Below, piece after piece: positions 22,102-52,270 of a stretch of 64,000 nucleotides of DNA. The DNA lies in assembly GCA_963555705.1 (NCBI GenBank), contig OY743180.1:42812129-42876128 (forward strand). The letters are read 5' to 3'. Origin of the DNA: Ligustrum vulgare. Lineage: Eukaryota > Streptophyta > Magnoliopsida > Lamiales > Oleaceae. Position 1 is the stretch's first letter. Each line of letters begins with the position of its first letter. The notes under the pieces were generated by a model that did not search any database, was not told the DNA's origin, and saw nothing but the letters and a program-made list of their open reading frames with translations. The position numbers were made by a program, and so were the translations under genes.

Positions 22102-23202
22102 TTCTTAGCTTACATGAGATAGAAAAATAAAAATAAAAAAAAAAAAAAAAACCTTGAAATTGACCACTGAAATTCAAACTCCAAGCAACCCAGAAACAGG
22201 AAAGCCCACGAATAATTCCTAGAATAGCCCAGACAGAGCAAAAGGCTTCGATAATTTCAAGATATTCATTTCAGAAACTTCCCCTACGAAATCAATAAAA
22301 AATCATTTTTTTTTTTTTTTGAAAGAAAAGGGATATCAAAGATCAAGAAAGACTTGCTAAAAAAAACAATGAAAAATAAAAAGATCAAGTAAGACGAGTG
22401 TCTGCTAAGGAGAATGAAAGAGAGAAAAGGGGATGTTTGAAACCCTATTGAGGGGAGAAATATATGGACCTCCTAAAATATTATGGGAAGAAACTTTTTA
22501 TGCAAGATTTGGACAGTTGATGGCAATTTTATTTAGGGTGTGGTTGAAAAATAAAAAATGGTGGATTTCAGATTTTTAACTAGTTGGACTTTTCAAAAAA
22601 TGGTTTAATGAGATGTTGTCACGTAATCATTTATAAACAAACTTTATTTTGTAACTTGAGATTTGTTCGATGGTACTATAACAATTATAAATTAGTTTAT
22701 TTATATTTTGTAGTAAAATGCGTGTTTAAAAATGAAGAGAAATTGTGTATGGTTAAAAATCAAATTAAAGAAATTGTGTTATTTGTAAATTGATTTATAA
22801 ATTATAATGATCGTATCATTGAACAGATGTTAGTTTATAAAACAACACATTTTTCAAAATCATTTTTTAACCACACATTTTTTCAAATCAATATCACATA
22901 TTTTAACTCAAAAACAGCAAACTCTTTGTACATAGTGTTTTTTTTTTTTTTTAAACATAATACAAAATTTTACCAAACATCGGCTAAATAGTAAGTTGTG
23001 ACTGTTTGGCGATCGTTAGGAAAAATATGTGGTTTGAAAGTAATTTTGAAAATGTGTGGATCCAAAATGTTTTTGAAAATTGCGCTATTAATAACAAGAA
23101 ACCGAACATGGATGCAAGGTAAATGTTTATATGGTGACATGGCCATGATAAACTCATCAGGGTTCTGTCAGCCCGGCGTAAATGAAAGTTCAAAAGGAGA
23201 AG
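22102..23202. other. ROH1-like 5' flank and MITE fragments
   Basis: Probable 5' UTR and promoter of the ROH1-like gene lie in about 22102-22450 (minus strand). No clear TATA box was assigned. Family A MITE fragments in opposite orientations lie at about 22640-22815 and 22830-22985. No other gene is seen. Confidence 0.4.
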
Positions 23203-23207
23203 AATAG

Positions 23208-25187
23208 TGTAGCGATCAAGAATTTTCCATGACTTATTTAAATAAATATTATCTAAAACGTGTCGCTACGACTTTACCTATTTATTTTAAACACATTTTC
23301 ATCTAGCAAGTTAAGTGGAAGATTTAATTTATTCAAATACTTAGTCAAATTTTAATTCTTATCAAAAATATTTCAATATCACAGTTTATTTTCAAAGTCC
23401 AAGTATTAATTATATTAAGTCCAAATTTCAACTGTTTTAATCCAATCCAACATCTCGAGCCCAAATGTTTTATCGATCATTCAAGCCCTTTTAACAACCC
23501 AACTTATCGAGCCCAAATGTTTTTACCAGTCAAATTCTTGGTCCAACCAATTCAACAGCTTCTTCCTCCCCAAGTCATTCCTTACACAATCGATACTTAT
23601 TTCCAAAATTCTTGCAAGTTTTCCATAAATCAAGATTTAACCTAAACTACCATGTTTAACACCTAAATCAACTATTAATTGGATCCCTATCTCTTGCATT
23701 CGCGCAAACGACCTCCAGCAAGGTATACTTTCATCTCTCTCAGTATATTCACGGCGACACACATACTGCATCCCAACCAAAACCAATCTAACACAGAGCC
23801 AAACACCACTGTCTGCATCCACCGCCGACAGCCATCTTCACCACGTCAATCGCTACTGCCCTATGTTCACCACCATAGCCAACTGAAATCATAATCACCA
23901 CAGTACCACCATTTGGAATCATCATCATCATCATCAGCACCTCGACCGGCCACTGCCACTACCCAAAACACCGCTGGCCTCCTGTGTTCCTCCAACAAAT
24001 TCACCCCAAATATATCCAAATCAAAATCAAAAACCCGCAGCTACCACCTTCACCGCCACCCTCACTCCACTACAATGACACCACACCAACGCACAAATCG
24101 CTCAAGCCGCCTCCACAAATTCGAAAAAAGAAAATCACCACTGCTGCCCACATCCAAAATCAACCCCAAATCAAACCATAAACCAAGAATAAACTAGCCC
24201 AATTACTTACCTTCATTGGCGGAATCGAAACCTCCCTAAAACACTTGAACCCAGCCTCGGGTTACTCTCGGTCCAGCACCCAAAATCACCCAACTCTCCT
24301 TCTTCTTCCGCCCCTACACCCGCCGCCATCGCCACCCCTCGAAGGCGGCGTCACCGCCTGCAAACGCCGGTGAAGTCACCGGCGATTTGTCCCCAACCTC
24401 ACTCTCTCGTTTCTCTCCTCTGCAGACCGCCCATCTCTCTTCTCTCTGGTTTGGATCGAAATAGGAGAGAAAAGGGATTGTTTTGTTTTATAATTTGATT
24501 TTTAAGTTTTGCCTTTTAGTCCCCAGCTTTTGAGAATAGTTATTTCGGTCATCTGCTTTGAAAAATGTTTTTAGTTCGCCCCTTAATCCCCATCTTTTAA
24601 ACTCATTTATTTCAGTCCTTTTAATTTTAAACGTTTAAATTCCAGTTTCAAGATATTTCTTGTCGGTCCTTAACTTTTTGAAAAGTTTTCTAATTCAGTC
24701 CATTGATTTTAATACATTATTATTCAGTCCCTACAGTTTTTGAAATATTTTATTCAACTCTAAAGTTTTGAAAATATTTATCTTTAGTCCCTAAACTTTC
24801 AAAGATTCATTTTAGTCCCCCAAGTTTTAAAATAATCATTTCAGTCCCTAAAGTTCAAAGTCATTTAAATCAGTTAGAGTATTAAATTGGATTTATTATT
24901 TTAAATTATGCTAGACGAGGCGCTTGGACATTTAGAAGAACAACGTGAACTTTCTTGCTCAACTTTCAGACTCGTGATTTAAGGTAGACTCGCCTCCATT
25001 AATTAGTTTAAATTATAATTGCATGTCTTATGTGAAATTACGTGATTTACATGATTTGATGCATGAGACGAGAAAAGAATATCTCTTATGAGATAAATGA
25101 GAAATGATGATGTTATGCATAACTTATGTGCCTTAAGTGCACGAGACGAGACTACCCACACCCTATGATTTTACGAGCCTTGATTTT
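23208..25187 (+). repeat. Left arm of the 2 kb palindrome (truncated LTR)
   Basis: It begins TGTAGCGATCAAGAATTTTC and is nearly identical, inverted, to 25283-27252. It shares the GCGAGTCTACCT and GACGAG blocks with the other LTRs in this window and lacks the last few hundred bases of the LTR (the side facing the spacer). Confidence 0.8.
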
Positions 25188-25282
25188 GAAAATAAAATGA
25201 AGCTGAAGCTTAGAGTAGTAAGAAGAAAGAATTGAATTTTGGGAAATCATTTACCTTCATCTTCATATCTAATCCCAAAATT

Positions 25283-27252
25283 AAATCAAGGCTCGTAAAA
25301 TCATAGGGTGTGGGTAGTCTCGTCTCGTGCACTTAAGGCACATAAGTTATGCATAACATCATCATTTCTCATTTATCTCATAAGAGATATTCTTTTCTCG
25401 TCTCATGCATCAAAGCATGTAAATCACGTAATTTCACATAAGACATGCAATTATAATTTAAACTAATTAATGGGGGCGAGTCTACCTTAAATCACGAGTC
25501 TGAAAGTTGAGCAAGAAAGTTCACGTTGTTCTTCTAAATGTCCAAGCGCCTCGTCTAGCATAACTTAAAATAATAAATCCAATTTAATACTCTAACTGAT
25601 TTAAATGACTTTGAACTTTAGGGACTGAAATGATTATTTTAAAACTTGGAGGACTAAAATGAATCTTTGAAAGTTGAGGGACTAAAGATAAATATTTGCA
25701 AAACTTTAGAGTTGAATAAAATATTTCAAAAACTGTAGGGACTGAATAATAATGTATTAAAATCAATGGACTGAATTAGAAAACTTTTCAAAAAGTTAAG
25801 GACCGACAAGAAATATCTTGAAACTGGAATTTAAACGTTTAAAATTAAAAGGACTGAAATAAATGAGTTTAAAAGATGGGGATTAAGGGGCGAACTAAAA
25901 ACATTTTTCAAAGCAGAGGACCGAAATAACTATTCTCAAAAGCTGGGGACTAAAAGGCAAAACTTAAAAATCAAATTATAAAACAAAACAATCCCTTTTC
26001 TCTCCTATTTCGATCCAAACCAGAGAGAAGAGAGATGGGCGGTCTGCAGAGGAGAGAAACGAGAGAGTGAGGTTGGGGACAAATCGCCGGTGACTTCACC
26101 GGCGTTTGCAGGCGGTGACGCCGCCTTCGAGGGGCGGCGATGGCGGAGGGTGTAGGGGCGGAAGAAGAAGGAGAGTTGGGTGATTTTGGGTGCTGGACCG
26201 AGAGTAACCCGAGGCTGGGTTCAAGTGTTTTAGGGAGGTTTCGATTCCGGCAATGAAGGTAAGTAATTGGGCTAGTTTATTCTTGGTTTATGGTTTGATT
26301 TGGGGTTGATTTTGGATGTGGGCAGCAGTGGTGATTTTCTTTTTTCGAATTTGTGGAGGCGGCTTGAGCGATTTGTGCGTTGGTGTGGTGTCATTGTAGT
26401 GGAGTGAGGGTGGCGGTGAAGGTGGTAGCTGCGGGTTTTTGATTTTGATTTGGATATATTTGGGGTGAATTTGTTGGAGGAACACAGGCGACCAGCGGTG
26501 TTTTGGGTAGTGGCAGTGGCCGATCGAGGTGCTGATGATGATTCCAAATGGTGGTACTGTGGTGATTATGATTTCAGTTGGCTATGGTGGTGAGCATAGG
26601 GCAGTAGCGATTGACGTGGTGAAGATGGCTGTCGGCGGTGGATGCAGACAGTGGTGTTTGGCTCTGTGTTAGATTGGTTTTGGTTGGGATGCAGTATGTG
26701 TGTCGCCGTGAATATACTGAGAGAGATGAAAGTATACATTGCTGGAGGTCTTTTGCGCGAATGCAAGAGATAGGGATCCAATTAATAGTTGATTTAGGTG
26801 TTAAACATGGTAGTTTAGGTTAAATCTTGATTTATGGAAAACTTGCAAGAATTTTGGAAATAAGTATCGATTGTGTAAGGAATGACTTGGGGAGGAAGAA
26901 GCTGTTGAATTGGTTGGACCAAGAATTTGACTGGTAAAAACATTTGGGCTCGATAAGTTGGGTTGTTAAAAGGGCTTGAATGATCGATAAAACATTTGGG
27001 CTCGAGATGTTGGATTAGATTAAAACAGTTGAAATTTGGACTTAATATAATTAATACTTGGATTTTGAAAATAAACTGTGATATTGAAATATTTTTTATA
27101 AGAATTAAAATTTGACTAAGTATTTGAATAAATTAAATCTTCCACTTAACTTGCTAGATGAAAATGTGTTTAAAATAAATAGGTAAATTCGTAGCGACAC
27201 GTTTTAGATAATATTTATTTAAATAAGTCATGGAAAATTCTTGGTCGCTACA
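25283..27252 (-). repeat. Right arm of the 2 kb palindrome (truncated LTR)
   Basis: It ends TTGGTCGCTACA and is followed by an inverted polypurine tract, so it was the 3' LTR of a minus-oriented element. Only a few differences from the left arm were noticed, for example in the GC-rich stretch near 26120-26150. Confidence 0.8.
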
Positions 27253-31960: not shown

Positions 31961-34302
31961 AATATCCAGACGAATCTGGGTCATCAGGATTCATCTGGAT
32001 CTGCGCTAAAACAGAACTTCACGTTTTTGGTCTAGATAAATTTCTGAAAGTCACTTTCATTCTATTTATAACAAGACTTCACATACGTCTGTTTATACTT
32101 TACTGTTCTGACAAAACTACGATAGCCAGATTTATCTAACTAATAACATTATTGAGAAATAGCAGATTAATCAGTGATAGTCTGGTCGTTTAAATTTTAA
32201 ATTTAGACGACTTTAAATTTTCAATATTCTTAAGGACAATCTAAAAATATCTTATCTTGAATTCATATGTAAAATAATGCATTCAATTGCATTATTACCT
32301 ATTTGATTACATAAGCCATAACCTATAATTCCTGACGTTTATTAAATCTTGTCTTTGAATCTTTCGAAAACAAAATAAACAATATTATTTAAATAGTGGC
32401 CAAACACTCAAATAATCAATAAGAATACAATAACAATCAATAACAAAAATCAAGTAAAAAGTTCGTCATTGAACTAAATGGTGAAATAAAAGGTTTTTTC
32501 TTCATATCAAAACACATGTATTTATTGTAGCATCTCTATAATTAAAATGAAACAAAAGATTTCTAAATTTTTCGTTAGGAATATTCACAACTGGATAATT
32601 TCTTATATTTTATTTTTGCTAAAAATTGCACTTTCAAGCTAAAAATACGAGTTGGCTTGTAAAGGTTATTTATTTATTTATTTGACTCGCGAGTGGTACA
32701 AGTTGAGCAGACATCTCACTCATAGCTACAACTAATCAACATAAATGAGAGGGGACATAGGAGGATTGACAAAGTATTCCTATTGGAGTCTTAGGGTATG
32801 TTTGGTAGTCATTGAAATTTCATGAAACAAGTAATCGCACCCGTACGATGCATGGAATATATAATTGAAAATTATTTATTGAATAAGTTGTAAAAATACA
32901 ATGTCCGATAAAAACAATACAATAAAAAATAATAATAATAATAATAACTTGCATGCACAAATTGTGAATAATTTGTAATTTCATTTCTCCATATAAGATT
33001 TCTTACTTTAATGTATAATTGCGTATTCAATATAAAAAAAAAAAAAAAAAATTAAAAAAAAAAAAAAAAAAAGTTATGAATTGCATTTTTTTAAAAGTTA
33101 ATTGTTCATTCTCTAATTTTCTTAATTTAATTATTTATATAGAATTGATTATTCAAAAATAATTTTTTTTAATGGTCATTCACAACCACATATTATTTTA
33201 AAACTAATTTTTCACAATTGCACATACTACTTTTTAACCATACATTCTAAAAAAAGAAAATCAATTTTCAACCACTTAATTGATTGATTTGACAATTATT
33301 TTATTTTTTATACTACCTTCTTTCACTTTCAATCACACATTTAAAACTATTTATATAGTCTATATGAATAACAATATCAAACTTACTCCTATTCAATGAT
33401 TCAAATACAAAGTGACATTTTATTTTTCACCAAGTATTAAAAATGGTCATGTTACACACACACACAAAACTATTTTTTGTACCTGTTAAATAAATGTATT
33501 AACCATATTTTTATTTTTAAATAGAATAAGTTTGATAAAACCTTATATTTTTATTTTTTATAGAACTCAATAAATTAATTGTTAAAGTCTGTAGTATATA
33601 TTTTACAAAATGATGTTCTTTTAAATTTATAAAATTAAAAAATAGATAAATGAACAAAATGAGTAAATTTATAAAATTAATTTCAAAATTACCAAAAAAA
33701 ATTATCGAAATCTAAAATTGTAGAAATTAAAATATTTTAATTGAATTTACTTAGAAAGATTGGATATCTATTATTTCTTTTAATTTGATAAGAAAAAATA
33801 TATGAAATTAATCATTTATATCAAATTGAAGTTATGTAAGAAAAGATAGATATCATTTTATGATTTAAATGAGATAAATTAAAAAGATTGGATATTGAAA
33901 AAAGTAAAAAGTATAAATTAAGCGTTTACCTTTATTATTTGAGATAATTTTACGAATGATATATTTAAAGTTTGTTTTCATTTATTAGCTTGTATTAAAC
34001 TTCTCGTTAATATCTTGAATTTGACACCCATATTGCATATTTTTTTACTTCAAAATATTACAATAATTATCAAAAGAATAAAAATAATATACAATTTGAT
34101 CTATTTATAGATTTTTTATTTTTTGCAAATCAATAAGTCATTTATTGTATGTCACCTATAATTAATTTTGCATTAATTGAAGTTTCCTAATTCAATTATT
34201 AAAATAATTAATAAAATTTTAAAGTTTCCTAAAACAGCAGGTAAAAATGGCGGGAAACTATGTGCGGATTTATGTGACTGCTATGTTGTTATTATATATA
34301 TA
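31961..34302. other. AT-rich intergenic stretch with degenerate repeats
   Basis: No gene is seen. Near 32835-32870 a degenerate copy of the Helitron end word (CACCCGTACGATGCATGGAA) precedes the two better copies at 34303 and 35138. Poly(A) tracts lie at about 33030-33073. Confidence 0.45.
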
Positions 34303-34329
34303 CTAGTTGTCTACCCGTGCGATGCACGG
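34303..34329 (-). repeat. Helitron 3' terminal hairpin, outer copy
   Basis: CTAG at 34303-34306, then a perfect CCGTGC/GCACGG stem at 34315-34329 (read inverted). This is the arrangement of a Helitron terminator. Confidence 0.65.
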
Positions 34330-35137
34330 AATATATAATTTTTAAATCATAATTTTAAAAACATTTTAATTCAATCATATCAAATAAAAAACATAATTTA
34401 AATGAAATTTCAATACAAAATGTTATTGAATTTGAAACTTTTAAAAAGATAAAACTATTCAAAATAAAAAAATGTTGCATGTACATTTAGTATACCGCGC
34501 CACTCAAAATTTGATATTCATTTAAATTTTTTATATAATTTTTTTTAAAAACTTTTATTTACATTTTTCTCTGAAAATTTGCCCACTTCATCATCTATTT
34601 CCCTTTTAATAATTTATAATTTATTATTAACTATATTTTTTAATGTGTTACTTAGATATATTTTATTTGAAATTCAATATATTTTATTTTTCCTTATTTT
34701 TTAAACATGTCAATTTTTATCAAAATAATAAAATAATTAAGCCTCCATTTGGTAATAATTTTTGTGATATGCTTATTGAAGAACCTACTCATTTATTGAC
34801 ATATTAGGAAGTAAAATTTCAATGATTTTATTTATTTATTTTCAAAATATATTGATTCAAAATCTTCATTTTTAACTTAACAAATTTATATTGCATGGAT
34901 TTTTTATTTTCAAATATATTAATCCGAAATTTTCAATTTCAATTTAACATATTTACATAGATATGACATTTATTTATGTTCAAATATATTAATACAATTT
35001 TTTGATTTCATAAATAAAATAACATATTTACATAGATATTATATTTATTTATGTTAAAATATATTAACTCAATTTTTTCATTTCCTACATAACACATTTA
35101 CAGAAATATCACATTAATTATGTTCAAATATATTAAT

Positions 35138-35164
35138 CTAGTTGTCTACCCGTGCGATGCACGG
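35138..35164 (-). repeat. Helitron 3' terminal hairpin, inner copy
   Basis: Same CTAG plus CCGTGC/GCACGG hairpin as at 34303, followed by closely similar sequence for several hundred bases. Confidence 0.65.
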
Positions 35165-37033
35165 AATATATAATTTTTATATCATAATTTTGAAAATATC
35201 TTGATTATATAATCATATCAAATAAAAAAAAAAAACCTAAATCAAATAAAATTTCAATACAAAATATTGTTGAATTTGAAACTTTAAAAAAGACAAAACT
35301 AATCAAAATAAAAAAATGTTACATGTATACTAAGTATACCGCACCACTCAAAATTCGACACTTATAAATTTTTTATATAAAATTCTTTTGATTTTTAATT
35401 ACATTTTTCTCTTAAAATTTTTCCACCTCATCACCTATTTCCTTTTTAATATGTTATAATTTTTTATTAACTATATTTTTTAATGTGTTACTCACATATA
35501 TTTTATTTGAAATCCAATATATTAATTAATATATTTTATTTTTCCTTATTTTTTAAACATGTCAATTTTTGTCAAAATGATGTAAAGATTAAGCCTCCGT
35601 TTGGTAATATTGTTTGATTTATAAACCTGTATAAATGATTTTGAGGTAAAAAATAATGGCTGAAAATTGGAGAGAAAAATATGTGTGGTTAAAAAGTTGA
35701 TAGAAAATAATTAATTATTTTTGTAACATGCGTATTGAAGATCCTACTCATTTATTGACATATTAGGAAGTAAAATTTCAAGGATTTTATTTATTTATTT
35801 TCAAAATATTTTAATTCAATTTTTAAATTTCTAACTTAACAAATTTATATAGCATATATTTATTTATTTTAAAATACATTAATCCAATTTTTTCATTTCC
35901 TCCATAACATATGTCATTGAGTTTAAAATTTTTTTTTAAAAAAAAAGCAAAACTAATCAAAATAAAAAATGGTGCACACACAGTGTACTGCACCATTCAA
36001 AGTTTGACATTTATTTAAATTTTTTATATTAAATTTCTTTTGACTTTTATTTACGTTTTTCTCTGAAAATTTGCCCACCTTATCACCTATTTTTCTTTTA
36101 ATATGTTATAATTTTTAATTAACTTTATTTTTTAATATGTTGCTTACATAAATTTTATTTTTCCTTATTTTTTAAACATACCAATTTTTATTCAAAATGA
36201 TGAAATGATTAAATTTTCTACCAACTTATCATTAGCTGTAAAAGGTTGATAGCAAATAATTAATTATTTTTGTAATATACTTATTGAAGAACCTACTCAT
36301 TTATTGACATATTAGGAAGTAAAATTTCAATGATTTTATTTATTTATTTTCAAAATATATTAATTCAAATTTTCATTTTTAACTTGACAAATTTATATAG
36401 CACGTATTTATTTATTTATTTTCAAATATATTAATCCAAAATTTTCATTTTCAATATAACACATTTACATAGATATGACATTTATTTATATTCAAATATA
36501 TTAATACAATTTTTTCATTTTCTATATAACACATTTAAATAGATATCACATTTATTTATGTTCATTTCCTACATAACACATTTACATAGATATCACATTA
36601 TTTATATTTAAATATATTAATCTAATTTTTTTCATTTCCAATGTAACACATTTACAAATATTACATTTACTACAACTCTTACTAAATATGTAATAAATAA
36701 TAAATTTTCCTACAAAATCTTTATCTTTTCTATATTTATTTTATTCATTTATTTTCAAAATATATTAATTCAAAATTTTAATTTCTATGTTAGCAAATTT
36801 ATATAGCATGTATTTATTTATTTTCAAATATATTAATCCAAAATTTTCATTTTCAATATAACACATTTATATAGATATGACATTTATTTATGTTCAAATA
36901 TATTAATACAATTTTTTCATTTCCTACATAACACAATTAAATAGATATCACATTTATACATAATATATTTATTATAACTCTTATTAAATATGTAATAAAT
37001 AATAAATTTTCCTACAAAGGTCTTTATCTTTTA

Positions 37034-37063
<30 letters not shown>

Positions 37064-40599: not shown

Positions 40600-41219
40600 G
40601 TTACTTTATTTCAATTTCGTAATTAATTAAAATTGTAACTTTATTTCAATTTTGCAATTAATTACAATTGTAACTTACGAATTTGTAAAAACATGACATT
40701 TTTCTTTTTTGCTAAAATTAATTGAAGGGTAATTATATTCACACCACAACATTTGTTAACCACGCCATATTTTATTTTTAATCAATATCTCTAAGCTTTT
40801 CTTATTTTTACACTTATGCTCCCAAGTTTTTTATATAAATCTTTTATCATCAACTATCTATTAATTTTCATATCTTGTCCATAAAGATGATTTTTGTCCA
40901 AAATACTTTTTATGAAGGGGGAAAAACTTATTTATATCCCGTATTTTTAAATAATCGAAGTAAATAACTGATAAAAAAACCAAAAATAAATATCCCCCCC
41001 CTTTTCAATGCACATTAGCAGTATAATTGGATATAAATTGTGATTAAAAACTATGTTAATTAATTGAAAGTTTAGGATAATAATGATTTGGAAAAAAAAA
41101 AATTGAGGAATAAAAGCAAAATTGAGCAAATATTAGAAACCTTTCATGTAAATGAAATGTGGTATAGATATAAAAAATTATGTTGTGAATATAACTGCCC
41201 TTAATTGAATTAGTTACAG
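40600..41219. repeat. Left part of a TTAATTACAATTG tandem-repeat tract
   Basis: 40600-40740 holds units such as TTTATTTCAATTTTGCAATT followed by AATTACAATTGTAACTT. The last bases before the retrotransposon, TTGAATTAGTTACAG (41205-41219), match the repeat unit seen to the right of the element (for example near 51955). Confidence 0.7.
41215..41219. repeat. Left target-site duplication TACAG
   Basis: An identical TACAG lies at 51613-51617, immediately outside the other LTR. Confidence 0.9.
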
Positions 41220-44200
41220 TGTAGCGCCCCGAGTTCCGTATACCCGATTCACTACGTCATTTTCTGTCTAAATTTTTCGAATAATATTTTTGCGGAAGAA
41301 ATAATTGAAATTCATTTTTTGGCAACATTAAATAAACTGTAATGGCCGCTAAAATTGAAAACATTTATGAAACCATTTGAAATAGTAAATCGAACCATTA
41401 ATATTGTAAAGAAATTGCCAATATCATAATTTCTCAAATAAATGAACTTCTCTAAATTATTCGATTGTTTGGAAAATACGGAAATCATTAACGTCAAACT
41501 TTCAACCGTTTAACGATTATTGCCACCATCATTCATCGCTCGCCACCGTCTCCGAAATCTGCAAAACTGTTAAAAAGTAGGGTGAGTATTTCATGGGGGA
41601 AATACTCAGTAGACTCATCGCAAATTAATTTAATTTATAAGATGATTAAACACATAAATCCCGGCTCTTTATAAAATGGGCATTGATAGAGCTTCTTTAT
41701 AAAACAGCTCTTGATAAAACTCATATTGTGCATTACAGCACGGGACATATTTTGCAAATCATAGGCTCTTTGAAAATAGCTCTTTGAAAACCATATACTT
41801 ATAAAAACATTTTAATTATGCCAAGCATAATTTCTTTTGAAAGCATAACATAAGATAGGATTGAAATCCTCATAAACATAGGGAGACACAAGAACTTTAC
41901 CGAACTTAGGTGGCAAGAATTCTTATGCAGTAAAATCATAATAACAGTAAGTTTTCATCATAACATAGGATAAAATCGAAATCCTCATAAACATAAGAAT
42001 TTTACCGAACTTAGGTGGTAAGAATTCTTATGTAGTAAGTATACCAAGCATAATTTTCTGAAATTCATAGGGATCAATTGCATCATAACATAAGATAGGA
42101 TCGAAATCCTCATAAACATATGCGACAGGAATTTTACCGAACTTAGGTGGTAAATCCTCATAAACATATGGAAAGATAGGAATTTTACCGAACTTCGTGG
42201 CAAATCCTCATAAACATAGGAGACACAAGAATGTTACCGAACTTAGGTGGCAAGAATTCTTATGTGTAGCGCTACTAAAACTCCGGTCCCCTTAACATAT
42301 CATAACTTATCATATGGGACCCAAAACAATCTTGGTAGATTGATTTCATAGCAATGATCCAAAAAAACATTTTCGTGAAGCATAGGGTATACTTACTTTT
42401 CGTAAAAACATAAAGTATATTTTCTTTTCATAAAAACATACTTACTTTTCATAACAACATAAGGTATATTTACCTTTCATAAAAACATACTTGTTTTTCT
42501 TAAAAATTGACTTTCACAAGTCACATGACATTCATATGAAATCATAATTTAAATCAATTAATAAGTGCGAGTCTACCTCAAATCCGACGAGTGCAAAGTT
42601 GAGCGGGAATGACTTCAATTTCTTTAAATTCTCCGTACGCTTCGTCTTAGCCAATAAGTCACTTTAGTATATCGAATATATAGCTCAAAATGATAAATTA
42701 TAATTTGAGGACTAAAATTGATGTTTTGAAAGTTGAGGGACTAAAATGAATACTTTTGAAAGTTGAGGGATTAAAATGAATACTTTTGAAACTTGAGCTT
42801 AAAATCAAATAAAGTAAATCAGCAGGGACTGAATTGATCAGATTTTTAAAATGAAAGGGCTGCTTAAAATCATTTAAAACTTTGGGACTGAAATGGATAA
42901 CTTTAAAACTAAAAGGGCTGGAAAATTCACTTTGGAAACTGAGGGACTAAATGGCAATTTTCGAAATATATTAAAATATATCCTCAGATTTCACTCTCTC
43001 TCACCATTTTCACTCTCTCACTCTTCGAACAAAACAGAGAACGAAGACAGAAGCGACCGGCGGCGGAAAGGCGGGACACTGCCGGTGCTAAGCCGGCGCA
43101 GTACCGGCGCCAAGTGCGGCGAGGGGCGTCAAAGGCAGGGGTTAAAGATTGAGGGTTCAGTGCGAGTTCTTTGGTTGCGAAAAACTGAGACAACATCGCG
43201 ATTTAAGGTGAGCGATTTTCGGCGGAAAATGGTGATTGAGGTAAGAAATGAACTCATTGATTCATGGGTTTTTCTTTGGGTTTGATTTATGATAGTGGGC
43301 AGAGTTTGGTGGTTGGACTGCGGTGTGGTGGTTGAGTGATTTCTATCGGCGATGTGGGCTGTTGCGGTTTGAGTGGTGGATAGGATGAGGCTTGATGGCT
43401 TCGATCGATGTTGGTGTTCATGATTCGAATTGGGCATAGAAGGTAGCAGCTTAGCAGATTGGTTGGTGGTCTGATGTTCGACGATGGGTGGTGACTGTGG
43501 TTGGGGAAATGATGATTTGGTGATTTGGAGCTGGAGGTGGTGATTCTGGTTAAAGCAGGTTGTGGTTTGCAAAGTGAGGCTTGGTCGTGAAGGGTGGTGC
43601 TGCTTCTGATTACGGATTGTGCAGTTGGGTTAATACTGCAGTGGTGATTGCTGGGTTGAATTGTGCAGTTTGGTGATGATGATGATTGGTGGTGCTGCAG
43701 GGGTGGTGACGGTTGAACTGTGGTTTGAGTTGATTGTGGAACTTCTCCAGGTTGGGCAGCAGTAGTGATTTGATGATGGAGATGATGAAAGTATGCAGAT
43801 GATGGAGACTTGTTGTTGGATTGGCAATAGGTAATGGCTTTGCAATGGTGAGGTTGGCCCGTGATTGAGGTTCTGCAGTGTACTGATGGTTGTGTGAGGG
43901 ATATTGTAGTTGAGGCAGCATAATGCAGTTTGGTGATGGTTTGATCGATGATGGAAAAGTGAAGGTGGGATGAAGATATCTTTAAAGGGGAAAAGAAAGA
44001 AAAGAAAATAATTAGTGGGAATAATTGAGTGGAATATGGGTTGGTGATGATAATGATGATGCTTGTTGATGGTTGTATAATGTGGTATGAGTGAGATGAT
44101 TGTGTGAGGTTGGCTGCGTGAGGGTGGGGATTATGGTGATGATGGTCTTGAATGGAGGTGATGGTATAATGATGAAATAGTGGGTTCTTTGTTAGGTGTA

Positions 44201-44709
44201 GTGAGTTGGAATGAGGTGGAAAGAAAATGGTGTTGGGACATAATGATGAATTTGATGTAAAGATGAAAACGTGGATGAAATTAGGTGGATATAGATTATG
44301 ATTAATTTAGGATAATTAACTAAAAATTAGACTAATTTCGATTAGGAAAAGTATTTAAAACTGATATATTTTGGACTGAAAATAAATTTGAGAATAAATA
44401 AATTTTGAGATAAAAATTGAATTATGTATTTGGACTTGAAATAATTTAAATAAGGAAAATTGAGATATTTTAATAAATTTGTAATTCAAAATGATTTTTT
44501 TGAAAATAATACTTTGAATAAATAATTAAAATAACATAATTTTAGAAATTCGGAAATTTAATTTAAAATCGAACAAATTCGATATTTCTTGACTTGACTA
44601 GACGAATCCGTCGCGGCGTTAACTTCAAAATAATAAATGAAATAGTAGCGACACAATTTTCTAAATATTAAAATAATTATTTATTGCATAAAAATTCTGA
44701 GTCGCTATA
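41220..44709 (-). repeat. 3' LTR (3490 bp)
   Basis: Plus-strand start TGTAGCGCCCCGAGTTCCGT, end GAGTCGCTATA. It is followed directly by the inverted polypurine tract. A run of ACCGAACTTAGGTGG-type tandem repeats (about 41895-42255), a CCGGCGGCGG-rich block (43055-43130) and a long GATGATG/GGTGGT-rich strand-biased tract (43300-44240) are visible. ORFs inside occur identically in the other LTR and are not genes. Confidence 0.93.
41890..42255. repeat. Tandem repeat inside the LTR
   Basis: The words GAAATCCTCATAAACATA and TTACCGAACTTAGGTGG recur at least five times with spacing of 40-110 bp. The same array is present in the other LTR (about 48795-49160). Confidence 0.8.
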
Positions 44710-44722
44710 CTCTTACCTCCTT
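44710..44722 (-). other. Polypurine tract
   Basis: On the minus strand AAGGAGGTAAGAG directly precedes the 3' LTR. The same arrangement, AAGGTGGTAGGGT, stands before the LTR arm ending at 27252. Confidence 0.8.
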
Positions 44723-44730
44723 AAAATAAT

Positions 44731-44740
44731 TTCGTCCTCG
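44731..44740 (-). other. Conserved CGAGGACGAA box of the former pol end
   Basis: On the minus strand TTTCGAGGACGAAATTATTT lies just before the PPT, as in many plant gypsy elements at the 3' end of pol. The same box is at 27274-27283. It is the only trace of pol noticed. Confidence 0.55.
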
Positions 44741-44744
44741 AAAT

Positions 44745-45340
44745 TAAACTTACTTAATCTTATAATTTCTGAATACTTAATCAGAATCTCTTCTTCTTAT
44801 CATCGAATATTCTCAAAATAATCAAAACAATTCCCAATCGTATGTAAAAATTTCATCAAATCTTTACTGACATATCGTATCATAATAATTTTTCCTTTCT
44901 TATCATCGAAAATTCCCAAAATCATCAAAGAATTACCTGAATATTCTCTCTACGTAACATATCAACATAATATCATCAACTTATCTTTCCAACATTTGTA
45001 ACTCAAAATTCAGTAAACAAATATCTCCCAAACTAAAATTCTTTACTTAAATATCACCACATTTCCTGCAAAGTATTTCTTTCACTTGTATATACGTATG
45101 AATTCTGATTCAATACGGTACTCATTTTACTTTCCACGTATCATCACACTATACCATGATTATTATTATTACAACAAAATATCAGTACCCATAATCCAAG
45201 AAAATATTCCAAATCTCCAATCAAATCTCCTTTATCGATAAAGTAAACGGCGCATAAACTCTTGTTCCCTCTTTTCCATTAAAATAATCCTGCTCTTTCT
45301 TACTGGACACAACATCACGCGGATTCATTCATATCCTTGC
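44745..45340. other. AT-rich internal stretch of the retroelement
   Basis: Rich in TATCATCGAA, AAATTC and CATCAA words; no frame or domain is seen on either strand. It precedes the TATA-like box of the Cys-cluster ORF. Confidence 0.5.
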
Positions 45341-45343
45341 GCT

Positions 45344-45352
45344 TTTAAATAG
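45344..45352 (+). promoter_or_regulatory. TATA-like box of the Cys-cluster ORF
   Basis: TTTAAATAG lies 41 bp before the ATG at 45385. The same nine bases lie before the LOG ORF. A start site about 30 bp downstream would give a leader of only a few bases. Confidence 0.45.
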
Positions 45353-45384
45353 TTCATGCTGGGAAGAGGTTGAATCATCAAACA

Positions 45385-45936
45385 ATGGATATCATCCTTT
45401 CTAACATTCGCAAGTATTATTCCAGTCTTCCTATGAATGATCTGAGAAAGATCTATAGAATAAGGCTCGAAAGATTGAGGTTGTTAATGGCTCATGATAT
45501 TCCAGAAGATGTTCGCTGGTTGATAGAAGCAAAGGTTCGACTATCTGGTGAATTACCATCAACATTTCCAAAGCACATGCCTGGTTTAGGCAAAAGCACG
45601 TTTGCAAAGAAACGAAGAGCAAAAAGACTGGGTGGTTGCTACAAATGTGCTCGTTGGAACTGTAATACACGTTGCAAATCAGTAGGATATTCTTCTACTA
45701 ATCGGGATGATAAAATCGAATTCATAAAGGGTGGACTGAGTAAGGAGTCTTTGGATGATATTCGACTGACTCTTGAGACGCACCCAAGTGGTTATGTACA
45801 ACGTGAACTTCTCTCCTTATACGCTCAGTTTAACGAGGACAAAAATCGTTATAGTCTCCAAAATATAATATCGAAAGATCCTGTTTGCCAGTCTGTTTTA
45901 CAAAATGAGGCTTCTGGCAGTTCAGCAATGATATAA
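45385..45936 (+). CDS. Uncharacterised 183-aa protein with Cx2Cx4Cx3C cluster
   Basis: I do not recognise the family. The first ATG (MDIILSNIRKYY) is at 45385 in the good context ACAATGG; five upstream codons are open but begin with TTG. The protein is basic. It has a predicted helical N-terminal part rich in Arg and Leu (18-36), a nuclear-signal-like KKRRAKR (75-81) and four cysteines at 85, 88, 93 and 97 (GGCYKCARWNCNTRC) that could hold zinc. A charged C-terminal region follows. The Cx2Cx4 spacing recalls a retroviral zinc knuckle, but the His is replaced and the last spacing differs. It lies antisense to the retroelement and 340 bp before the LOG ORF on the same strand. It is uninterrupted, which in so AT-rich a setting suggests selection. 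A DNA- or RNA-binding role is only a guess. Confidence 0.6.
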   Translation: MDIILSNIRKYYSSLPMNDLRKIYRIRLERLRLLMAHDIPEDVRWLIEAKVRLSGELPSTFPKHMPGLGKSTFAKKRRAKRLGGCYKCARWNCNTRCKSVGYSSTNRDDKIEFIKGGLSKESLDDIRLTLETHPSGYVQRELLSLYAQFNEDKNRYSLQNIISKDPVCQSVLQNEASGSSAMI

Positions 45937-46007
45937 GGTAAATCTTTTGATATGCTTTTTAAAATATTTTGCTATTTTCTTTAACGCGTTTTGGAAATAA
46001 AAAATAT

Positions 46008-46088
46008 TTTCCTTTCTCGAGTTTTGATAAAGCTGGAAATAAATATATTTTTCTTTTCTCGAGGTTTGATAAAGCTGGAAATAAATCA
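46008..46088. repeat. Tandem repeat between the two captured ORFs
   Basis: TTTCTCGAGTTTTGATAAAG and TTCTCGAGGTTTGATAAAGC begin two units of about 41 bp; a shorter third unit precedes them near 45985. Confidence 0.75.
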
Positions 46089-46193
46089 CCGAAAGGTGAT
46101 ATCTTTGATAAAATAGTCAAAAGTTGGCCGATTTTGTCAAAAAGCGAATCTTTACTTTTTCAGAATCAATCAAAAACAGTAAATTTTTCCGGC

Positions 46194-46202
46194 TTTAAAT
46201 AG
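46194..46202 (+). promoter_or_regulatory. TATA-like box of the LOG ORF
   Basis: TTTAAATAG lies 83 bp before the LOG ATG, leaving a leader of about 50 bases if transcription starts 30 bp downstream. It is the same word as at 45344. Confidence 0.45.
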
Positions 46203-46276
46203 CCAAACATATTTCATAGTTCAGGCATCCCAAAATCACATCTTCTTCGTAAGTTTTCCCTTCTTTAATATCAAAG

Positions 46277-46930
46277 ATGGAAGCACCAAAACTTCGACAG
46301 ATCAAAACTATTTGTGTATTTTGTGGATCAAAAGTAGGGAAAGGCTTCGGTTATCTAGAAGAGGCCGTAGATCTTGGAAAGAAACTGGGGGAAAAAGGTA
46401 TCACTCTTGTATATGGGGGTGGTAGCAGTGGTCTAATGGGTTGTGTTTCCCAATCTGCTCTTGCAGAGAAATCAAAAGTAATCGGTGTTATACCTGTCCC
46501 TTTGGTAGATGTTGCAGGCAAAACACGAGGGCATGAAGTTCAAACCTTATCCATCCATGAACGCATAACTTGTATGCTATATGGTTCTGATGCCTTTATA
46601 GCCCTGCCCGGAGGTTTTGGTACCTTAGAAGAAATCTTTAACATTACCTCGTGGGCTCAACTAGATCTCCATACTAAGCCTATTGGGCTTCTGAATGTTA
46701 ACAATTTCTTTGATGGTTTGTTAACCTTTCTTGATTATGCTGTGGAACAGGGATTCATCTCTCCATTTTCCAGAAGGCTTCTTATTTCTGCTCCTACTAT
46801 TGATGAACTACTGGATAAGCTGCAGTCATATATCTCAATACAAGATCCAGCAGGAGTTAAGATAGATTGGTCGCAAGGAAGGGGAATCAAGCGAAAATGG
46901 AGTCCGGTTAATGTAAACTTAACTCTTTGA
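46277..46930 (+). CDS. LOG-family cytokinin riboside 5'-monophosphate phosphoribohydrolase
   Basis: Family role: LOG enzymes release free, active cytokinin bases from nucleoside 5'-monophosphates in the cytosol and nucleus. The 217-residue frame is complete and intronless. Motifs in order: ICVFCGS (12-18), LVYGGGSSGLMG (44-55), VIGVIP (68-73), the conserved Arg at 96 in SIHERI, PGGFGTLEE (111-119, the PGGxGTxxE active-site motif with Glu119), TSWAQL (124-129), KPIGLLNV (134-141), GFISP (159-163) and SAPTIDEL (171-178). Length fits LOG proteins (about 200-230). Deviations: the usual RKA after the Arg is RIT, and the PGGYGT Tyr is Phe. Plant LOG genes normally have several introns, so this is probably an old retrocopy. 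It sits antisense inside a young LTR retrotransposon, with its own TATA-like box and a repeat-bearing 3' region. It is likely able to make protein; activity is inferred. Confidence 0.85.
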   Translation: MEAPKLRQIKTICVFCGSKVGKGFGYLEEAVDLGKKLGEKGITLVYGGGSSGLMGCVSQSALAEKSKVIGVIPVPLVDVAGKTRGHEVQTLSIHERITCMLYGSDAFIALPGGFGTLEEIFNITSWAQLDLHTKPIGLLNVNNFFDGLLTFLDYAVEQGFISPFSRRLLISAPTIDELLDKLQSYISIQDPAGVKIDWSQGRGIKRKWSPVNVNLTL

Positions 46931-46940
46931 ATCTTAGAAT

Positions 46941-47155
46941 AGGTGGGGGGTAGAGTACGGAGTATTCTCACTCTCGAGACACCCCTCCATTTACTAGGAT
47001 TTCCTTAATGTTTAAATCTTGTGTGTACTTCAAAGATTCCAGGTGGTAGATTACGGAGTATTCTTACTCTCGAAACACACCTCTTTGAAGGTTTCTTTAT
47101 TTCCTCAAAAGATCAGAGGTGGTAGGATACGGCTACTCCGGAAACACATCTCTCG
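46941..47155 (+). repeat. Three repeats in the LOG 3' region
   Basis: Units at 46941-46988, 47041-47084 and 47117-47155 share AGGTGGTAGA, TACGGAGTATTC and CTCTCGARACAC-type words. They start 11 bp after the LOG stop and would be in its 3' UTR. An AATAATAAAATC word at about 47248 could serve polyadenylation. Confidence 0.7.
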
Positions 47156-47299
47156 TTCTGAGGATCTTTCCATGTTTTTCTCTTATGCTTTCGTGTGTTT
47201 CATGTATTTCCTTTCCAGTGTGACTCTTGTGTGTTCTCCTTATGAGAAAATAATAAAATCTCTGCTATCATCTACTAAATCTCGTTTGTGATGTAAATG

Positions 47300-48107
47300 A
47301 TCTTGCATGTCTAACCTTAATTCCTTTAGTGGATGCTTATCATATTATGCTCTTAATTCCAAATGATAAAATTCTGGATAGAGTCTCCCTTGTAATTTGG
47401 ACTTATCCAAACCATAAGCATACTTCATAACTCACAATAATAAATAACTCCACATTTGATCACAACGATCTAAAAATATTGAAAACGATTCCAACACTTC
47501 AATATCATCAAAATATCCCATAATTCAATTCATAATTCCTCAACATAGAAATTTCAAATCATATTTTTCAATATCACAATATTACTTCCTTCCATACCTT
47601 AATTGGCTCAAAAGTTACTCATACTTATAAATATATGCCATAAATCATATTCCCAAAATTTATTCACAAAGCCAAACTTCATAATAAATTTCTCTTCAAC
47701 ATAGAGGCATAATAAATTAACTCAACATAATATCCATTACTTAATTCTCAATAAAATCATATTATTCCCATTATGCTCAACACTCGTTTTCTTTAAAAAA
47801 TTTCTCATAATCATACATTAAAGCATATAAGTTATGACAAAGCATAACAACATCATTATTTTCGAAGAAATACATTCTTATTTCTCATAAATCATAAGTA
47901 TCCGAAATACTCTTCATTCTTTCTCATAAATCAATAAAATGAGTATTCGAAATACTGAATTAACTTTAAACATCATAAACTTCTTTACCTCGGAGTTGGT
48001 GGAACGAATGATGGCAGTGGCAATCTTCATCAATAAAAATCTTATAATGGAAAATATTTCTTAAAATTCTTTTTGAAAATTTTACCTGTCTACAGAAACG
48101 CAGACTA
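47300..48107. other. AT-rich internal stretch after the LOG 3' region
   Basis: No frame or domain is seen. It is rich in CATAAT and TTCATAA words. On the retroelement's own strand this is the leader between the PBS and the first ORF, where gag would be expected and is absent. Confidence 0.5.
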
Positions 48108-48119
48108 GCTCTGATACCA
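48108..48119 (-). other. Primer-binding site, initiator Met tRNA type
   Basis: On the minus strand TGGTATCAGAGC stands three bases after the LTR end ACA. This is the standard complement to the 3' end of plant initiator Met tRNA. Confidence 0.88.
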
Positions 48120-48122
48120 ACT

Positions 48123-51100
48123 TGTAGCGCCCCCAGTTCCGTATACCCGATTCACTACGTCATTTTCTGTCTAAATTTTTCGAATAATATTTTTGCGGAA
48201 GAAATAATTGAAATTCATTTTTTGGCAACATTAAATAAACTGTAATGGCCGCTAAAATTGAAAACATTTATGAAACCATTTGAAATAGTAAATCGAACCA
48301 TTAATATTGTAAAGAAATTGCCAATATCATAATTTCTCAAATAAATGAACTTCTCTAAATTATTCGATTGTTTGGAAAATACGGAAATCATTAACGTCAA
48401 ACTTTCAACCGTTTAACGATTATTGCCACCATCATTCATCGCTCGCCACCGTCTCCGAAATCTGCAAAACTGTTAAAAAGTAGAGTGAGTATTTCATGGG
48501 GGAAATACTCAGTAGACTCATCGCAAATTAATTTAATTTATAAGATGATTAAACACATAAATCCCGGCTCTTTATAAAATGGGCATTGATAGAGCTTCTT
48601 TATAAAACAGCTCTTGATAAAACTCATATTGTGCATTACAGCACGAGACATATTTTGCAAATCATAGGCTCTTTGAAAATAGCTCTTTGAAAACCATATA
48701 CTTATAAAAACATTTTAATTATGCCAAGCATAATTTCTTTTGAAAGCATAACATAAGATAGGATTGAAATCCTCATAAACATAGGGAGACACAAGAACTT
48801 TACCGAACTTAGGTGGCAAGAATTCTTATGCAGTAAAATCATAATAACAGTAAGTTTTCATCATAACATAGGATAAAATCGAAATCCTCATAAACATAAG
48901 AATTTTACCGAACTTAGGTGGTAAGAATTCTTATGTAGTAAGTATACCAAGCATAATTTTCTGAAATTCATAGGGATCAATTGCATCATAACATAAGATA
49001 GGATCGAAATCCTCATAAACATATGCGACAGGAATTTTACCGAACTTAGGTGGTAAATCCTCATAAACATATGGAAAGATAGGAATTTTACCGAACTTCG
49101 TGGCAAATCCTCATAAACATAGGAGACACAAGAATGTTACCGAACTTAGGTGGCAAGAATTCTTATGTGTAGCGCTACTAAAACTCCGGTCCCCTTAACA
49201 TATCATAACTTATCATATGGGACCCAAAACAATCTTGGTAGATTTATTTCATAGCAATGATCCAAAAAAACATTTTCGTGAAGCATAGGGTATACTTACT
49301 TTTCGTAAAAACATAAAGTATATTTTCTTTTCATAAAAACATACTTACTTTTCATAACAACATAAGGTATATTTACCTTTCATAAAAACATACTTGTTTT
49401 TCTTAAAAATTGACTTTCACAAGTCACATGACATTCATATGAAATCATAATTTAAATCAATTAATAAGTGCGAGTCTACCTCAAATCCGACGAGTGCAAA
49501 GTTGAGCGGGAATGACTTCAATTTCTTTAAATTCTCCGTACGCTTCGTCTTAGCCAATAAGTCACTTTAGTATATCGAATATATAGCTCAAAATGATAAA
49601 TTATAATTTGAGGACTAAAATTGATGTTTTGAAAGTTGAGGGACTAAAATGAATACTTTTGAAAGTTGAGGGATTAAAATGAATACTTTTGAAACTTGAG
49701 CTTAAAATCAAATAAAGTAAATCAGCAGGGACTGAATTGATCAGATTTTTAAAATGAAAGGGCTGCTTAAAATCATTTAAAACTTTGGGACTGAAATGGA
49801 TAACTTTAAAACTAAAAGGGCTGGAAAATTCACTTTGGAAACTGAGGGACTAAATGGCAATTTTCGAAATATATTAAAATATATCCTCAGATTTCACTCT
49901 CTCTCACCATTTTCACTCTCTCACTCTTCGAACAAAACAGAGAACGAAGACAGAAGCGACCGGCGGCGGAAAGGCGGGACACTGCCGGTGCTAAGCCGGC
50001 GCAGTACCGGCGCCAAGTGCGGCGAGGGGCGTCAAAGGCAGGGGTTAAAGATTGAGGGTTCAGTGCGAGTTCTTTGGTTGCGAAAAACCGAGACAACATC
50101 GCGATTTAAGGTGAGCGATTTTCGGCGGAAAATGGTGATTGAGGTAAGAAATGAACTCATTGATTCATGGGTTTTTCTTTGGGTTTGATTTATGATAGTG
50201 GGCAGAGTTTGGTGGTTGGACTGCGGTGTGGTGGTTGAGTGATTTCTATCGGCGATGTGGGCTGTTGCGGTTTGAGTGGTGGATAGGATGAGGCTTGATG
50301 GCTTCGATCGATGTTGGTGTTCATGATTCGAATTGGGCATAGAAGGTAGCAGCTTAGCAGATTGGTTGGTGGTCTGATGTTCGACGATGGGTGGTGACTG
50401 TGGTTGGGGAAATGATGATTTTGTGATTTGGAGCTGGAGGTGGTGATTCTGGTTAAAGCAGGTTGTGGTTTGCAAAGTGAGGCTTGGTCGTGAAGGGTGG
50501 TGCTGCTTCTGATTACGGATTGTGCAGTTGGGTTAATACTGCAGTGGTGATTGCTGGGTTGAATTGTGCAGTTTGGTGATGATGATGATTGGTGGTGCTG
50601 CAGGGGTGGTGACGGTTGAACTGTGGTTTGAGTTGATTGTGGAACTTCTCCAGGTTGGGCAGCAGTAGTGATTTGATGATGGAGATGATGAAAGTATGCA
50701 GATGATGGAGACTTGTTGTTGGATTGGCAATAGGTAATGGCTTTGCAATGGTGAGGTTGGCCCGTGATTGAGGTTCTGCAGTGTACTGATGGTTGTGTGA
50801 GGGATATTGTAGTTGAGGCAGCATAATGCAGTTTGGTGATGGTTTGATCGATGATGGAAAAGTGAAGGTGGGATGAAGATATCTTTAAAGGGGAAAAGAA
50901 AGAAAAGAAAATAATTAGTGGGAATAATTGAGTGGAATATGGGTTGGTGATGATAATGATGATGCTTGTTGATGGTTGTATAATGTGGTATGAGTGAGAT
51001 GATTGTGTGAGGTTGGCTGCGTGAGGGTGGGGATTATGGTGATGATGGTCTTGAATGGAGGTGATGGTATAATGATGAAATAGTGGGTTCTTTGTTAGGT

Positions 51101-51612
51101 GTAGTGAGTTGGAATGAGGTGGAAAGAAAATGGTGTTGGGACATAATGATGAATTTGATGTAAAGATGAAAACGTGGATGAAATTAGGTGGATATAGATT
51201 ATGATTAATTTAGGATAATTAACTAAAAATTAGACTAATTTCGATTAGGAAAAGTATTTAAAACTGATATATTTTGGACTGAAAATAAATTTGAGAATAA
51301 ATAAATTTTGAGATAAAAATTGAATTACGTATTTGGACTTGAAATAATTTAAATAAGGAAAATTGAGATATTTTAATAAATTTGTAATTCAAAATGATTT
51401 TTTTGAAAATAATACTTTGAATAAATAATTAAAATAACATAATTTTAGAAATTCGGAAATTTAATTTAAAATCGAATAAATTCGATATTTCTTGACTTGA
51501 CTAGACGAATCCGTCGCGGCGTTAACTTCAAAATAATAAATGAAATAGTAGCGACACAATTTTCTAAATATTAAAATAATTATTTATTGCATAAAAATTC
51601 TGAGTCGCTATA
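48123..51612 (-). repeat. 5' LTR (3490 bp)
   Basis: Same length as the LTR at 41220, with about eight single-base differences noticed by eye and no indel. It is adjacent to the primer-binding site. Confidence 0.93.
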
Positions 51613-51617
51613 TACAG
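51613..51617. repeat. Right target-site duplication TACAG
   Basis: Identical to 41215-41219. Confidence 0.9.
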
Positions 51618-52270
51618 TCCCCTTAATTACAACCAGAATTGAAACTTAATTACATTTTTAATCAATTATAGTTTACAATTATTACAATTATAACTTTATT
51701 TCAATTTTGAAATTAATTACAATTGCAAATAATGAGTTTGTAAAACATGAAAGCTACTTTTTTTTTTGCTAAAATTAATTGAATTAGTTACATTCACATT
51801 AATTACAACTCCAATTGCAACTTAATTACATTTTATAATTAATTACGCTTTACAATTAATTACAATTATAATTTATTTCAATTTTGTATTTAATTACAAT
51901 TGCAACTAATGAATTTGTAAAGACGTGATAGATTTTTTTTTGAAACTAATTGAATTAGTTACATTCACCTTAATTACAATTGCAAATGAAACTTAATTAT
52001 TATTGTAATCAATTACAGTTTACATTTAATTACAAATGTAACTTTATTTCAATTTTGCAATTAATTATAATTGTAACTAATGAATTTATAAAACATGACA
52101 TTTTTTTGGCTAAAACTAATTGAATTGGTTACATTCACCTTAATTACAATTGCAATTGCTACTTAATAACATTTTGTAATCAATTACAGTTTACAATTAA
52201 TTACAGTTGTAACTTTATTTTCATTTGTAATTAATTACAATTGTAACTAATGAATTCATAAAACTAATGT
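51618..52270. repeat. Right part of the TTAATTACAATTG tandem repeat
   Basis: At least four units of about 160 bp. Each has TTGAATTAGTTACATTCACC, TTAATTACAATTGCAA, ATTACAGTTTACAATTAATT, TTTATTTCAATTTTG and AACTAATGAATTTGTAAAAC. The array continues at 40600-41219 on the other side of the retrotransposon. Confidence 0.8.

Follow-up and report, generated by a model that had tools for sequence, protein, structure and literature searches.

The 64,000-nucleotide stretch of the Ligustrum vulgare genome analysed here (contig OY743180.1, positions 42,812,129 to 42,876,128; hereafter the window) contains at 41220-51612 a long terminal repeat (LTR) retrotransposon without gag or pol genes of its own. Antisense to the element lie two open reading frames (ORFs), one encoding a protein like the viral nucleic-acid-binding proteins (NABP/CRP) and the other a protein of the LOG family, and together they form a cassette that is maintained by purifying selection as the element family spreads.

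The element and its antisense cassette

The features of the element itself are listed first and those of the cassette second.

41215-41219 (no strand): target site duplication (TSD) TACAG, directly abutting 41220
41220-44709 (-): LTR, the 3' LTR in the sense of the element, 3490 bp with 8 mismatches to the other LTR
44710-44722 (-): polypurine tract (PPT) AAGGAGGTAAGAG, adjoining the LTR and ending at 44710, recognised by its position and the rule presumed for such tracts
48108-48119 (-): primer binding site (PBS) of the tRNA-Met type, recognised by a presumed motif
48123-51612 (-): LTR, the 5' LTR in the sense of the element, found by repeat comparison
51613-51617 (no strand): TSD TACAG, directly abutting 51612
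45282-47246 (+): two-gene cassette of ~1.97 kb, delimited by alignment to siblings that have ~850 bp of non-coding DNA instead
45344-45352 (+): TATA-like TTTAAATAG, 41 bp before the NABP-like ORF, a candidate promoter by consensus match
45385-45936 (+): viral nucleic-acid-binding protein-like (NABP/CRP) ORF, 183 amino acids (PF05515, PF01623)
45607-45675 (+): basic KKRRAKR and then directly C-X2-C-X4-C-X3-C (residues 75-97), read from the sequence
46194-46202 (+): second TATA-like TTTAAATAG, upstream of the LOG ORF, likewise a candidate promoter by consensus match
46277-46930 (+): LOG family ORF (SLOG fold), 217 amino acids, open (PF03641, E 9e-34)
46553-46567 (+): LOG pocket I-H-E-R-I (M-H-x-R-K in the family) with the catalytic Arg96 kept, residues as in PMC4979012
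46607-46642 (+): PGGFGTLEE with the catalytic Glu119, then Asn122 replacing the pocket Glu125, residues as in PMC4979012

Comparison of the window with itself gave two LTRs of 3490 bp each with 8 mismatches and no gaps, and the flanking 5-bp TSD, the PBS after the 5' LTR and the PPT before the 3' LTR complete the structure of an LTR retrotransposon. The sequence GCTCTGATACCA at 48108 is the reverse complement of TGGTATCAGAGC, which we take to be the tRNA-Met PBS motif. The reverse-complement PBS there and the PPT ending at 44710 place the sense of the element on the minus strand. A Pfam scan of 32 further ORFs of the studied copy (28 in the interior and 4 in the LTRs) revealed no gag or pol family, and at E 0.1 it yielded nothing beyond a weak TADA2A-like_3rd match (E 0.028). 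The interiors of 20 other copies match that of the studied copy and leave no room for gag-pol, as judged by interior match, not by Pfam. Of the two marks of an autonomous Ty3/gypsy element with LOG as an extra ORF, the LOG/YgdH ORF is present within the element and gag-pol with reverse transcriptase is lacking. Most Ty1/copia groups, too, usually have a PBS of the tRNA-Met type (PMC6317226). An earlier note on the same DNA had described a young LTR element of this structure, without gag or pol, holding an uninterrupted LOG-family ORF with the motif PGGxGTxxE; both descriptions were borne out. The ORF at 45385-45936 was absent from that note.

The 183-residue protein passes the Pfam cut-offs of two viral families, PF05515 (Viral_NABP; E 3.9e-7, 30.7 bits against a cut-off of 23) and PF01623 (Carla_C4; E 4.6e-6, 27 bits against 20.9). 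The LOG-like protein matches TIGR00730 (E 4.7e-48) in an NCBIfam search, aligns with Arabidopsis LOG3 without an intron-like break and has as its nearest solved structure a plant LOG, PDB 2a33 (Arabidopsis At2g37210, E 8.7e-57).

The bounds of the cassette became apparent from copies that do not carry it. Homology to four LOG-less siblings stops at 45275-45281 and restarts at 47247. Five such siblings have the ends of the interior in common with the LOG form, at 83-92% identity in two long pieces. The longest stop-free stretch in their ~850-bp middle is 70 amino acids, and none of the five LOG-less stretches has a stop-free stretch of 100 amino acids. The cassette is a discrete module in one branch of the element family.

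Copies in the genome and selection on the two genes

The genome searched comprises 1.385 Gb in 51 contigs, and members of the element family are present on 23 long contigs. The LOG query yielded 9442 candidates and the NABP-like ORF 8795, and in each case the best 150 scored were all full length and stop-free; these are the top-scoring places, and the candidates are not confirmed copies. With every one of the best 150 of 9442 LOG candidates uninterrupted and full length, the intact LOG ORF is not a product of chance. Genome-wide, 2223 occurrences of the junction between PBS and LTR (29 bases, at most 1 mismatch) and 2022 of a 25-base exact junction were counted, against 0 of the reversed control in both cases. 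All 20 places fetched from the LOG list proved to be LTR-interior-LTR structures with the same cassette. Divergence between the LTRs of one copy ranged from 0 to 0.97% with a median of 0.05%, and in five of the 20 the pairs were mismatch-free over the 2.8-3.3 kb aligned; this set was picked by LOG score and leans young, and many of its stretches hold the LTR incompletely. In the studied copy the pair differs by 0.23%, which exceeds the divergence in 18 of the 20. Between copies (L009-L028) the LTRs diverge strongly, mostly in the middle, and the combination of diverged middles with near-identical pairs suggests that many diverged sources were recently active. The family consists of young, probably still spreading non-autonomous LTR retrotransposons. 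Same-orientation cassettes were also observed every ~6.2-7.2 kb at 28003425-28023623 of contig C6 (four there at 6550 bp) and in many pairs among the scored LOG and NABP-like places, a spacing as expected of tandem elements with shared LTRs.

For a sample blind to coding content, every fifth entry was taken from a list of 100 exact junctions on contig C1, together with 2.4 kb beside each (n=20). LOG was full length and open in 14 of these, truncated in one and absent from five, and the NABP-like ORF was full length and open in 13, shortened in one (L073) and absent from six. In the truncated copy (L059) LOG residues 136-217 remain, and a nearby ORF resembles, by eye, the end of a gypsy integrase. 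When copies were chosen by their NABP-like ORF, LOG was open to its end in 19 of 20 (on 19 contigs). Carriage of LOG by other copies, which the earlier note had proposed as a check, was thus found in both samples.

Substitutions were counted in two sets of copies. The LOG set (n=34) was not chosen by LOG and consists of 19 copies chosen by the NABP-like ORF, 14 blind copies and the studied copy; it leaves out L049, in which the frame is lost after residue 202, and six of the 20 blind copies. The NABP-like set (n=40) was chosen by LOG (27 copies) or blind, with seven of the 20 blind copies left out. L020 and L060 are the same place and were counted once, and L001 is the studied copy itself. Expected replacements are those given by the same base changes falling at random. 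Among the LOG changes shared by at least two copies 17 were synonymous and only one was a replacement (12.5 of 18 expected), and among those seen once there were 23 synonymous changes and 19 replacements (30.4 expected). For the NABP-like ORF the shared changes comprised 21 synonymous and 14 replacement (25.6 expected) and the single changes 18 and 17 (27.0 expected). With the blind and studied copies only (n=14), the corresponding figures were 15 and 6 (15.5 expected) for shared and 13 and 11 (18.5 expected) for single changes. Copies chosen by LOG score alone gave 26 synonymous changes and one replacement, an outcome favoured by that choice. Caveats that must be applied to these counts are that the NABP-chosen set and the 27 LOG-chosen copies are young by choice, that the shuffling ignores the tree and that some copies are tandem neighbours.

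Shared changes date from the source elements and single ones are mostly post-insertion. Selection keeps the cassette, as the 17 synonymous changes to one replacement shared among LOG copies make clear, and it follows from the pattern of shared versus single changes that the lineages which kept spreading depended on LOG in particular. The constraint on the NABP-like ORF is real but weaker than that on LOG, and in the pooled set shared changes show no tighter constraint than single ones. The ratio of replacement to synonymous change among copies (dN/dS), also proposed in the earlier note as a check, did not come out near 1, so that neither the presence of LOG nor dN/dS gave the outcome that would have spoken against the note.

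Possible roles of the cassette and its relation to known systems

As a whole, the explanation that we consider probable, if by no great measure, is a non-autonomous family with a selected antisense two-ORF cassette, copied by a partner and exerting effects on its host. The RNA of the element would be packaged and copied by the proteins of an unseen autonomous partner, and both ORFs would be transcribed on the opposite strand from their own TATA-like TTTAAATAG boxes at 45344 and 46194. By analogy with its viral relatives the NABP-like zinc-finger protein may serve as a silencing suppressor or nuclear regulator, while the LOG-fold enzyme would cleave a nucleoside 5'-monophosphate; the shifted nucleotide or hormone state of the cell could then lead to the element being copied or inherited more often. 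A more specific version is offered only tentatively, namely that a family without its own replication genes carries a two-gene, antisense-transcribed cassette for host manipulation, in which a zinc-finger protein of plant-virus type blunts silencing or reprogrammes the nucleus and a pocket-shifted LOG-fold enzyme acts beside it, promoting a genomic burst.

A number of points weigh against this explanation, the first being that its mechanism is drawn from sequence. The five of 20 sampled copies without the cassette multiplied all the same, so a copy can do without the cassette in cis. Such siblings fit help in trans, yet they sharpen the puzzle of how a trans-acting gene is retained: selection on a trans-acting protein should be poor where the element is not autonomous, and the model must invoke either few expressed sources or cis-preference, that is, a protein favouring its own RNA. 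An autonomous partner was not found by way of the shared LTR end and PBS among 100 listed places on contig C1; 97 of these were already in the 29-base list, and one of the three new ones lies inside L023, a LOG copy. The separation of source elements from dead copies is clear for LOG only, because constraint on the NABP-like ORF is near equal in shared (0.25) and single (0.28) changes, and single LOG changes also lie below neutral (0.32). The NABP-like ORF, with its C-X2-C-X4-C-X3-C, does not have the carlavirus spacing C-X2-C-X12-C-X4-C, and an NCBIfam search gave no family for its product. A single-sequence fold of this protein (pLDDT 36) was uninformative and was discarded.

The alternatives turn in part on the active site of the LOG-like protein. 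The catalytic residues of the family are Arg99 and Glu122 and the adenine contacts Met96, Lys100 and Glu121 (C. glutamicum numbering), and a prenyl pocket of Met96, His97, Lys100, Glu125 and Trp129 is identical in AtLOG3, OsLOG and CpLOG (PMC4979012). At the matching places the protein of the element keeps Arg96, Glu118, Glu119, His94 and Trp126, and PGGxGTxxE is present with the catalytic Arg and Glu. Ile93, Ile97 and Asn122 stand for the pocket Met, Lys and Glu, so that three of the five prenyl-pocket residues are replaced and the His and Trp kept. The altered stretch was found in 28 of 28 motif-matched places (27 copies and the studied copy), and all 34 copies of the LOG set carry Ile, Ile and Asn at these places. 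Only three of eight bacterial relatives matched the motif search, all with Met, Lys and Glu, the other five falling outside the pattern. Across the 34 LOG copies Glu119 is changed in one and the motif carries G112R in another. In L040 the catalytic Glu is lost (E119K) and the NABP-like ORF is full length, the copy having been chosen for that ORF.

To judge from these residues, the LOG-like enzyme is probably active on some substrate. It is possible, with the balance tilting against it, that the ORF encodes a normal cytokinin-activating enzyme and that more active cytokinin in meristems favours the lineages that carry and transmit the element. Membership of the LOG family, the retained catalytic Arg and Glu with the pocket His and Trp, and the strong purifying selection all speak for this, but the replacement of Met96, Lys100 and Glu125 in every copy of the set speaks against it, as does a score of 108.2 bits against the NCBIfam cytokinin-enzyme equivalog NF058542, whose cut-off of 300 plant LOGs may or may not reach. 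The hormone activation proposed in the earlier note is not established: the catalytic pair is present, but the pocket is altered and the equivalog score lies below the cut-off. A more doubtful alternative is a shift in the substrate of the LOG-fold enzyme, perhaps towards nucleotides that signal in plant immunity or silencing; the cassette would then be a counter-defence module of two parts. The fixed pocket changes beside an intact catalytic pair, and a partner gene like viral silencing suppressors, would fit such a module, whereas the substrate, immune nucleotides included, is purely conjectural. No host LOG gene was seen with Arabidopsis LOG3 as query among the best 150 of 8911 candidates scored; these had 49-52% identity, six with an internal stop, and are presumably copies of the element. 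Hairpins 3' of LOG (46932-47165) were not significant (z -1.6 and -1.5).

The second ORF raises the question of a viral origin for the cassette. Mandarivirus CRPs belong to the PF05515/PF01623 families, and the NABP-like protein resembles carlavirus and mandarivirus CRPs in passing the cut-offs of both and in having a basic stretch directly before four cysteines, which are kept in 40 of 40 open copies. In the carlavirus protein the basic stretch is followed by cysteines of longer spacing (PMC8839810), and that protein is encoded by an RNA virus, whereas the shorter-spaced form lies in a retrotransposon. Viral relatives of the NABP/CRP type function in silencing suppression and symptom determination (PMC12172455; PMC8839810). 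A search of PDB with the NABP-like protein gave a best E of 0.24. It is unlikely that the cassette is an endogenous piece of a plant virus, as yet unknown, with adjacent NABP and LOG genes carried intact. The viral family match and the compact two-gene layout with its own TATA-like boxes would be explained, but two scans of viral contigs with both ORFs, which covered close patterns only, confirmed no relative, the LOG-like protein is nearest to a plant LOG among solved structures and no other viral gene is present among the ORFs of the element.

That a host gene and a virus fragment were caught by chance and multiplied without function is very unlikely: plant LTR elements are well known to capture genes (PMC7264820) and LOG-less siblings multiply too, but passive capture is disfavoured by the synonymous and replacement counts (17 to one for shared LOG changes, omega ~0.25 for the NABP-like ORF) and by frames open in 14 (LOG) and 13 (NABP-like) of 20 coding-blind copies. 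Least probable of all is that one or a few copies are a domesticated host gene, selected on behalf of the host, and the rest recent offspring, which would likewise yield conserved frames, since the 17 shared synonymous changes across many contigs suggest several source lineages, alike conserved, and all 20 places fetched at full length (those 20 only) sit between LTRs.

The preferred explanation, a selected cassette in a non-autonomous family, has partial counterparts among known systems. The term LARD is used for non-autonomous LTR elements, and the family shares with these its LTRs and priming sites without gag-pol; the LOG-less sibling form, with its non-coding middle, fits this class, whereas the LOG form, with two selected ORFs, does not have the non-coding interior. 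Two Athila-like elements similar to LOGL4 were reportedly described by Steinbauerova et al. in 2011. The YgdH domain, which is found in LONELY GUY proteins, is present in gypsy consensus sequences of Citrus sinensis and C. clementina, and in gypsy of Populus trichocarpa when the filter of that study is not applied (PMC9289625, which cites Steinbauerova et al. 2011 for LOG in such elements). The earlier note knew of no described family that mobilises such an enzyme, a claim that fails because LOG has already been published from plant Ty3/gypsy elements. Those of Citrus and Populus are likewise LTR retrotransposons with an extra LOG-family ORF, but they were found via reverse transcriptase, and so have pol, whereas the studied element lacks pol and carries, next to LOG, a further ORF that is virus-like; no NABP-like domain is mentioned in section 12 of PMC9289625.

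Antisense ORFs (aORFs) conserved across copies are also known from Grande, RIRE2 and Retand (aORF-3R), and a promoter of its own is reported for that of Grande (PMC7264820, PMC11963269). Unlike the ORFs of the element studied here, these aORFs occur alongside gag-pol, and the domains that they encode are different ones (TRP28 in Retand); according to PMC7264820 aORF sequences are without similarity to viruses. An aORF-3R lies between pol and the 3' LTR; the two ORFs studied here are antisense as well, in an element that has no pol by which to define that position. Gypsy elements of Phalaenopsis with a 2-ODD RNA demethylase ORF offer another example of an accessory enzyme kept through replication, but they have Gag and Pol, are related to Ogre and carry a different enzyme (PMC9289625). 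No report of a LOG and NABP-type pair in retrotransposons was found among the matches listed, in a search that reached few subscription papers. As far as was searched, the new elements are the virus-like partner gene, the non-autonomous carrier and the evidence of selection.

If the preferred explanation is true, accessory proteins can be borne and retained even by a retrotransposon that parasitises other elements. One of these proteins would be common to plant RNA viruses, so that viruses and transposons may take their means of countering plant defences from a shared pool of genes. It would be new to transposon biology that trans-acting genes are under selection in an element that is not autonomous, and how such an element keeps a trans-acting gene becomes testable, the copies being young and numerous. 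The many transposon-borne LOG-like genes confuse the annotation of cytokinin genes in this genome.

Other features of the window

No Rfam family matched the 64,000-nucleotide window at the gathering threshold, and a scan for promoters of the bacterial type (16 found against 14.6 expected) was uninformative for a plant. A palindrome of ~4 kb at 23208-27252 is 97.3% identical to its own reverse complement, and parts of it resemble 12529-12832 (82%) and the LTR (70%). Diverged direct repeats occupy 34294-37054 and 51613-52264, the second set beginning at the right end of the element. Of 44 ORFs scanned, one each matched the bZIP, FAR1 DNA-binding and ROH1-like families. Host-like coding stretches, assigned to families by reading the sequences, lie at 2442-3293 (+), 16287-16865 (-) and 20932-22104 (-).

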